DNA from: an uncultured Eubacteriales bacterium
GTDB taxonomy: Bacteria > Bacillota > Clostridia > Christensenellales > CAG-138
Direction of reading: 5' to 3'
DNA: 54,686 nucleotides
Assembly (NCBI GenBank): GCA_902761365.1
Contig: CACWJZ010000018.1
Span: 1 to 54,686, forward strand
Made by a program: the position numbers and the translations under genes. This document shows positions 14,409 to 15,431 of the stretch, one piece after another; the first letter of the stretch is position 1, and the number at the start of each line of letters is the position of its first letter. Under the pieces are notes generated by a model. The model saw nothing but the letters and a program-made list of their open reading frames with translations, searched no databases and was not told the DNA's origin.

Positions 14409-15431
14409 ATGGCAAGTGTAAAACTGACCAACGTAAAGAAGGTTTACGATAACAACGTGGTCGCCGTGCACGACTTCAATCTGGACATCAAGGACAAGGA
14501 GTTCGTGGTGTTCGTCGGCCCCTCCGGCTGCGGCAAATCCACCACCCTGCGCATGGTGGCGGGCCTGGAGGAGATCAGCGGCGGCACCGTGGAGATCGAC
14601 GGCGAGGTGGTCAACGATCTGCAGCCCAAGGATCGGAACATCGCCATGGTCACCAACGCCGCGGAGATTTTGGGTATCACCGACTACCTGCTGCGCAAGC
14701 CCCGGGCCCTGTCCGGCGGCCAGCGGCAGCGTGTGGCCATCGGCCGCGCCATGGTCCGTGACTCCAAGGTGTTCCTCATGGACGAGCCCCTCTCCAACCT
14801 GGACGCCAAGCTCAGGAACCAGATGCGTGCCGAGATCATCCTGCTGCGGCAGAAGCTGAACACCACCTTCATCTACGTGACCCACGACCAGACCGAGGCC
14901 ATGACCTTGGGCGATCGCATCGTCATCATGAAGGACGGCTACATCCAGCAGGTGGGCACCCCCGCCGAGGTGTTCGAGAAGCCCACGAACCTGTTCGTGG
15001 CCGAGTTCATCGGTGCGCCCAAGATGAACATCGTCAAGACCAGCCTGGTCAAGGAAGGCGACAAGTACTTCGTGACCCCCTGCGGCGCGAAGATCGAGGT
15101 CACCGGCGAGAAGGGCGAGCTGCTGAACGAGAAGAGCGTCAGGGGCGGCGAGGTGCTGCTGGGCGTTCGTCCCGAGCACATGAAGCTCAGCTTCGAGGCC
15201 ACGCCCGACACCATGCCCGCCCGGCTGGAGGTCAACGAGATGATGGGCAGCGAGCTGCACCTCCATGTGTTCACGGAGGACGGCACCCGCTGGATCGTCC
15301 GCGTGCCCACCATCGACCTCACCCAGGCCCAGCGCGCGTCCCTGGTCAACGGCGCCGAGGTGTACATCACCTTCGAGGGCAAGGTCATGCACTTCTTCGA
15401 TCCCAAGACCGAGAAGAACCTGGTCTATTGA
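14409..15431 (+). CDS. msmX: MsmX/UgpC-type sugar ABC ATPase lacking the Q-loop segment
   Basis: 340 aa; this family is normally about 365-375. Intact parts: Walker A [10 protein letters not shown], signature [14 protein letters not shown], Walker B VFLMDEP, D-loop SNLDAK, H-switch YVTHDQTEA, and a C-terminal regulatory/OB domain with GVRPEHM. Between Walker A and the signature, residues 76-88 read [13 protein letters not shown]. In the family, MV is followed by [10 protein letters not shown] and about 25 more residues before AAEIL. About 34 residues, including the Q-loop glutamine and the first part of the helical subdomain that touches the EAA loops, are therefore missing in frame (junction at 14649-14660). 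The protein should bind ATP but couple poorly or not at all. A full-length shared MsmX elsewhere in the genome could energise the importer. Confidence 0.9.
   Translation: [340 protein letters not shown]

Follow-up and report, generated by a model that had tools for sequence, protein, structure and literature searches.

A private in-frame deletion in a malK gene of an uncultured Eubacteriales bacterium, and a dispersed structured element upstream of it

Genomic context

The window analysed here, a 54,686-nucleotide stretch of DNA (contig CACWJZ010000018.1), comes from the draft genome of an uncultured Eubacteriales bacterium (G000; 2.32 Mb in 116 contigs, 69% complete), and carries a malEFG-malK sugar importer operon on its forward strand. 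A malE-like sugar-binding lipoprotein with C-terminal X25/SusE-like repeats is encoded at 9436-11748, with Pfam matches to SBP_bac_8 (E 7.8e-23), X25_BaPul_like (E 6.5e-11) and, below the family cut-off, SusF_SusE (E 2e-4); three repeats of about 90 residues each can be made out by eye. Two permease genes with intact frames follow: a malF-type gene (11873-13405; NCBIfam MalF, E 1.3e-49, below the equivalog cut-off), whose product shares 92-94% amino acid identity with those of three congeneric operons, and a malG-type gene (13405-14274; NCBIfam MalG, E 3.3e-38, also below the equivalog cut-off), with 94% identity to the copies in genomes G011 and G007. Between malG and the ATPase gene lies a dispersed structured element (14300-14401, forward strand), supported by a covariance model and by covariation, which comprises a first hairpin, a three-way junction and a Shine-Dalgarno-like tail, and ends 7 bp 5' of the ATPase gene.

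The open reading frame at 14409-15431 (forward strand, 340 aa) is the dedicated ATPase gene, malK, of this importer, downstream of the genes for the binding protein and the two permeases. Its product, of the MsmX/UgpC type, runs from an 11-residue N-terminal stretch to the C-terminus TEKNLVY, and the sequence contains Walker A (GPSGCGKST), LSGGQ, Walker B (LMDEP) and the H-switch (THD), while the C-terminal domains OB_MalK (PF17912) and TOBE_2 (PF08402) both score over their cut-offs, so that the initial annotation was right to describe the remaining ATPase motifs and the regulatory domain as intact. The match to PF00005 (E 2.9e-23) is split in two pieces, and the match to the NCBIfam UgpC subfamily NF008653 (375.2 bits, in two stretches) falls below the 432-bit cut-off; the product lacks the Q-loop glutamine and the coupling-helix pocket (F82-Y88 region) that characterise a working MalK/UgpC/MsmX importer ATPase. 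The next closest match in the same genome has 62% identity over residues 79-339. The two best entries by both sequence and structure are MsmX of Bacillus subtilis (6yir) and Clo1313_2554 (7x0q), which share with the window protein a nucleotide-binding domain followed by OB_MalK and TOBE, but differ in retaining residues 82-115 with the Q-loop. Like MalK of the Escherichia coli MalFGK2 importer, the window protein is a dedicated ATPase encoded with malEFG-like genes; unlike it, the window copy has neither the Q-loop nor the coupling-helix pocket.

A deletion of 34 codons in malK

Alignment with the DNA of 16 orthologues shows that malK is missing exactly 34 codons (102 bp, in frame), corresponding to residues 82-115, with the deletion point directly after base 14651. 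The initial annotation had estimated an in-frame loss of about 34 residues that included the Q-loop glutamine and part of the permease contact surface, and both the length and the contents of the lost segment agree with this: residues 82-115 comprise the Q-loop, the permease coupling-helix pocket and two helices of the helical subdomain. That annotation also held that the segment had been replaced by the two residues TN, which is not the case. Congeneric orthologues read KVTNAAEIL at the site (within longer stretches of 43 and 47 residues compared with a 13-residue stretch across the window junction), so TN is ancestral rather than a foreign linker or substitute, and because it is already present in these orthologues the change is a clean deletion. 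A 4-bp direct repeat, GGTC, flanks the 102-bp segment and is exact at both ends in 13 of the 16 orthologues; its left copy lies at the junction (14648-14651, forward strand).

The alignment to homologues that had been proposed was carried out on 61 genomes (G000 and 60 relatives) and a named genome collection, from whose at least 590 matching stretches the best 80 were used. Among the 117 loci compared, a frame could be aligned to the query for 113, and the Q-loop motif is present in 111 of these. The exceptions are the window and L023, whose frame stops short of the deletion site; the segment is retained in each of the 111 other frames extending over the site. These 111 are partly non-independent (G004/L010 and RUG472/L038 look like one contig, with the same length and the same segment) and include three paralogues in G000 (L002-L004). 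A degenerate junction pattern, blind to deletions with a different junction, matched one of 12 genus genomes and one of 103 family genomes, only at the window locus. On these alignments, loss of the segment is not normal variation within the family. One homologue (L075) has a natural insertion further along the helical subdomain and keeps its Q-loop.

Compared with seven relatives, malK has 12 private substitutions (scored in columns where at least five of the seven have a base and all those present agree), and because eight are at third codon positions there is no sign of decay, as had been noted for the rest of the gene. Five of the 12, four of them synonymous, are clustered beside the junction (14660-14691, forward strand), a pattern consistent with a short stretch acquired from a divergent homologue, or with a chimeric read. 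When the comparison is limited to three sister operons, groups of 5 to 7 within 40 bp are also found at 15324, at 12058 and near 11701-11720, and because clusters of similar size occur elsewhere in the operon the one at the junction is suggestive only. No donor for it was found among the loci compared (best match 52 of 58 bases) or in 103 family genomes searched with a 21-base pattern at up to one mismatch.

By malF, the operon groups with those of G011, G003 and G007 (92-94% amino acid identity) and is only 75% identical to G010. At the DNA level, malK is nearest to G010 (93.9%, against 92.5% for G011), and this difference in affinity between malF and malK makes an exchange of malK between operon types possible. 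In G010 itself, malK and malF are on different contigs. Four loci in viral contigs are relatives of malK, at 35-41% identity. The malG-malK region matches 2303 plasmid records, none of which covers more than 80% of the query; by best place, one record matches at 95-99% and one at 90-95% identity, and neither is among the 20 matches listed, which have 71-77% identity.

Predicted consequence and probable origin of the deletion

An AlphaFold2 model of the window protein (31-sequence alignment) has a mean pLDDT of 84.6, with values below 50 at residues 80-90, 96-101 and 103-117, a range that covers most of LSGGQ (101-105), compared with a mean of 92.5 and no residue below 50 for the intact relative L038 (30 sequences); AlphaFold confidence is not a test of stability. 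Strand 78-81 of the intact model is reduced to one residue in that of the window protein, which overall still matches MsmX (6yir; TM 0.83 by query length). According to PMC7658222, the F81-Y87 region of MalK (F82 onward in MsmX) accommodates the coupling helix of MalF/G, and an MsmX R104A/E110A double mutant is impaired. These positions (the MalK F81-Y87 region, MsmX R104 and E110) all fall in the deleted segment. The truncated protein is probably unable to form its helical subdomain or to power MalFG.

A second full-length MsmX-like gene, which the initial annotation had proposed to look for, is present on contig 4 of G000. It encodes a 392-aa paralogue with an intact FQNYALYPH, and no permease frame was recognised by eye in the 13.5-kb stretch that carries it. 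Counted by hand along the sequence, this ATPase carries D77, R104, E110 and K154, residues associated with multitask ATPases in PMC7658222. In congeneric genomes, the products of the dedicated malK genes have N77, Q104 and V110, and thus differ from MsmX at 77, 104 and 110 (also counted by hand). The orphan ATPase on contig 4 could power MalFG.

Three origins had been offered for the malK change: a recent deletion, an assembly artefact or a real non-catalytic partner. The first has gained support, the second remains its main rival, and the third is without support. We favour, with a probability of roughly 0.6, a recent loss-of-function deletion in a dedicated malK, with MalFG import either lost or powered by the contig-4 ATPase. 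This reading is supported because the loss is of exactly 102 bp, is associated with a short direct repeat and is present in one genome only, in a gene with no other decay. The 102 bp would have been lost between the two GGTC repeats, either by deletion at a short direct repeat or by illegitimate recombination, and would have taken with them the Q-loop, the coupling-helix pocket and the two subdomain helices; import through MalFG would then have ceased or have been driven by the orphan full-length MsmX-like ATPase. The deletion would be recent, because what remains of malK has the appearance of a gene under selection and the loss is absent from all relatives examined. The upstream element would represent a separate insertion between malG and malK.

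We infer that the sequence reflects the living cell. The main rival reading is an assembly or library artefact, in which the contig joins two templates (from two strains or by way of a chimeric read) and malK is intact in the living organism. The deletion is known from a single, fragmented and incomplete draft assembly and from no other genome, and the five private substitutions crowd just past the junction as if they came from another genome. Moreover, four congeneric drafts have contigs that break off at malK or within it (G010 at the ATG, G002 and G003 at about codon 287, G006 at about codon 178), so the region assembles poorly. Against a join of this kind, only 4 bp are common to both sides of the junction. 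An overlap of 4 bp is not known to suffice for a join by graph assemblers, and some read therefore probably crossed the junction. In addition, malF and malG are free of gaps of 6 bp or longer against three sister operons, and the searches described above returned no donor sequence. On balance we consider an artefact rather unlikely.

Against the favoured reading, the preserved reading frame might equally reflect a protein retained for some other purpose. A genuine non-catalytic or regulatory ATPase partner, maintained by the cell and able to work with no Q-loop, would be consistent with the in-frame loss and with the persistence of Walker A, LSGGQ, Walker B, the H-switch and the C-terminal domains. 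Against such a partner, the operon has no intact malK, each congeneric genome has at most one close copy (88-92% identity), and none of the relatives examined has the deletion. Structural helices and the permease pocket are gone as well as the glutamine, and the predicted fold is disturbed from about 80 to 117, beyond the Q-loop, when compared with the intact L038, all of which makes a retained partner highly improbable. A broken malK is by itself ordinary, and the case carries a warning against taking an ATPase that lacks the Q-loop in a single draft genome for a new enzyme class. We consider the neighbouring element, rather than the malK lesion, worth pursuing.

A dispersed structured element between malG and malK

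The malG-malK gap is short in the sister operons of G011, G007 and G003, where the element is absent, and about 100 bp longer in the window (14301-14402 in the alignment; the figure is alignment-dependent, with about 98 bp net against G003 by hand count). The similar size of this gap and of the 102-bp deletion was treated as coincidence, the two sequences being unrelated by eye.

A 110-bp query gave 60 blast matches with E no higher than 1, spread over 11 of the 12 genomes of the genus, the weakest of them due to chance; 13 are in G000, where the weakest is doubtful and about 12 are copies (for example L172-L182). We took 42 of the 60, leaving out all four of G006 and others that were mostly weak, and excluded L183 (weak) and L206 (different 5' half) from the position counts, which cover 40 copies in 10 genomes, G000 contributing 12. 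The alignment comprises 37 sequences after exclusion of three further near-duplicates. GTGTGA (start-stop codon) is found in only 23 of 40 copies and is not claimed as a conserved head of the element.

In the proposed fold, hairpin 1 is followed by a stem enclosing two hairpins and then by the Shine-Dalgarno-like AAAGGA tail. Over the 37 sequences, 94.9% of cells pair, with two-sided changes at 10 of 29 pairs (61 cells). No shuffle of 500 reached the observed pairing, two-sided changes or covariation score, and one reached the number of pair types, in a test that leans in the fold's favour because the copies are related; slid controls were 29-59% paired, a comparison that leans the same way because the structure was drawn from the same sequences. 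Covariation thus supports the fold. Single-sequence folds of five copies gave z-scores of -1.2 to -4.5, with the full junction only in the minimum-energy fold of L175; the window copy (z -3.6) has no outer stem in its minimum-energy fold, and the RNAalifold consensus recovers only part of the fold.

Model R2 scores 112.7 bits at 14300-14401, its sole match in the window. With the covariance model, 12 copies are detected in G000, and there are matches in 11 of the 12 genomes of the genus and in 22 of 103 from the family. In an order-wide sample with stricter filters, 11 of 396 genomes matched, one of them outside the family. Rfam gave no match at gathering threshold in window positions 14150-14500 (IMES-5, 19.6 of 96.1 bits; snoR86, 13.4 of 40), and only tRNA hits and one sub-threshold hit at seven loci with other copies. 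The element was found in none of the plasmids, phages and viral contigs searched (the viral contigs with one exact pattern with open positions). No such element appears in the titles and abstract openings of the literature searched, which cover the field in part, and it is apparently undescribed so far.

In 38 of 40 copies, a sense ATG frame of at least 80 codons starts within 40 nt downstream (antisense 5/40; random 16%), and in 39 a frame of at least 100 codons has its end in the interval from 80 nt upstream to 60 nt downstream of the element start (random 33%). Of the 40 copies, 29 have a Shine-Dalgarno-like word just 5' of the element and 38 have one at its 3' end (random 15% for each), and a start codon likewise follows two copies outside the 40, in G006 and G010. 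Where a downstream frame is present (39 copies), it belongs to one of 27 gene families, 19 of them single, which by protein motifs include Ffh, SecA, CheW, ScpB and MtaB. From this arrangement we infer a spacer that would give the downstream gene its own ribosome entry.

Related loci show the element present in one genome and absent in others. At 11 mtaB loci, the full element is in G000 only, and eight have a stop-start spacing of 1 to 3 nt by eye; the loci of G011 (L252) and G007 (L253) carry a short form, hairpin 1 and the Shine-Dalgarno tail without the three-way junction core. At 11 loci of an rnfE-like gene, the element is in G000 only. An element that is scattered in this way, and that a given gene may have in one genome and lack in another, is probably mobile. 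Tentatively, and at somewhat less than even odds, we suggest a new class of mobile intercistronic RNA that would land in sense between stop and start codons, bring a folded spacer and a ribosome-binding sequence, and so give the downstream gene an independent translation start, and that would here have separated malK from malG.

The same data can be read as those of an ordinary, riboswitch-like cis-regulatory RNA, gained and lost with genes and not mobile. Sense placement before start codons in 38 of 40 copies, the conserved junction core with its covariation, and the finding that eight of the 27 families are each preceded by at least two copies would all fit such an RNA. The breadth of the downstream families, most of them single, argues against it, as do the lack of an element ahead of malK, mtaB and rnfE in sister species, and the tandem arrangement of a distant relative within a tRNA cluster; we regard this reading as unlikely.

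REP/BIME, ERIC/IRU and MITE sequences are short, palindromic, many-copy and intergenic, and present or absent at one site among related species. The element is likewise short, contains palindromes and is found in many copies between genes, present or absent among relatives. It differs in its single orientation at gene junctions (38/40 copies), in its own Shine-Dalgarno-like tail and in its covarying three-way junction. A MITE has terminal inverted repeats and a target-site duplication; in the element, internal hairpins only were observed, and comparison by eye at malK, mtaB and rnfE gave no clear duplication. In contrast to the REP/IS200/IS605 type, a Y1 (TnpA/RAYT) transposase is present in only two of 12 congeneric genomes (drafts) and not in G000, so that a role of this enzyme as mobiliser is unsupported.

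If the element does insert at stop/start junctions and restart translation, it would be a natural part that sets protein amounts within operons and would make the evolution of translational coupling directly testable, and it may also find use as a prefabricated bicistronic spacer.

Other genera of the family have weaker matches, with a frame of at least 60 codons starting within 34 nt downstream in 7 of 16 copies. Some of these copies are in tandem, and L230 (1174-1602) holds four tandem copies of the distant relative in its tRNA cluster. At L223-L225, L228 and L231, a small hairpin (CTTTGC...GCAAAG) follows near the Shine-Dalgarno sequence of the element; its arm repeats the 5' arm of a core hairpin and would allow alternative pairing.
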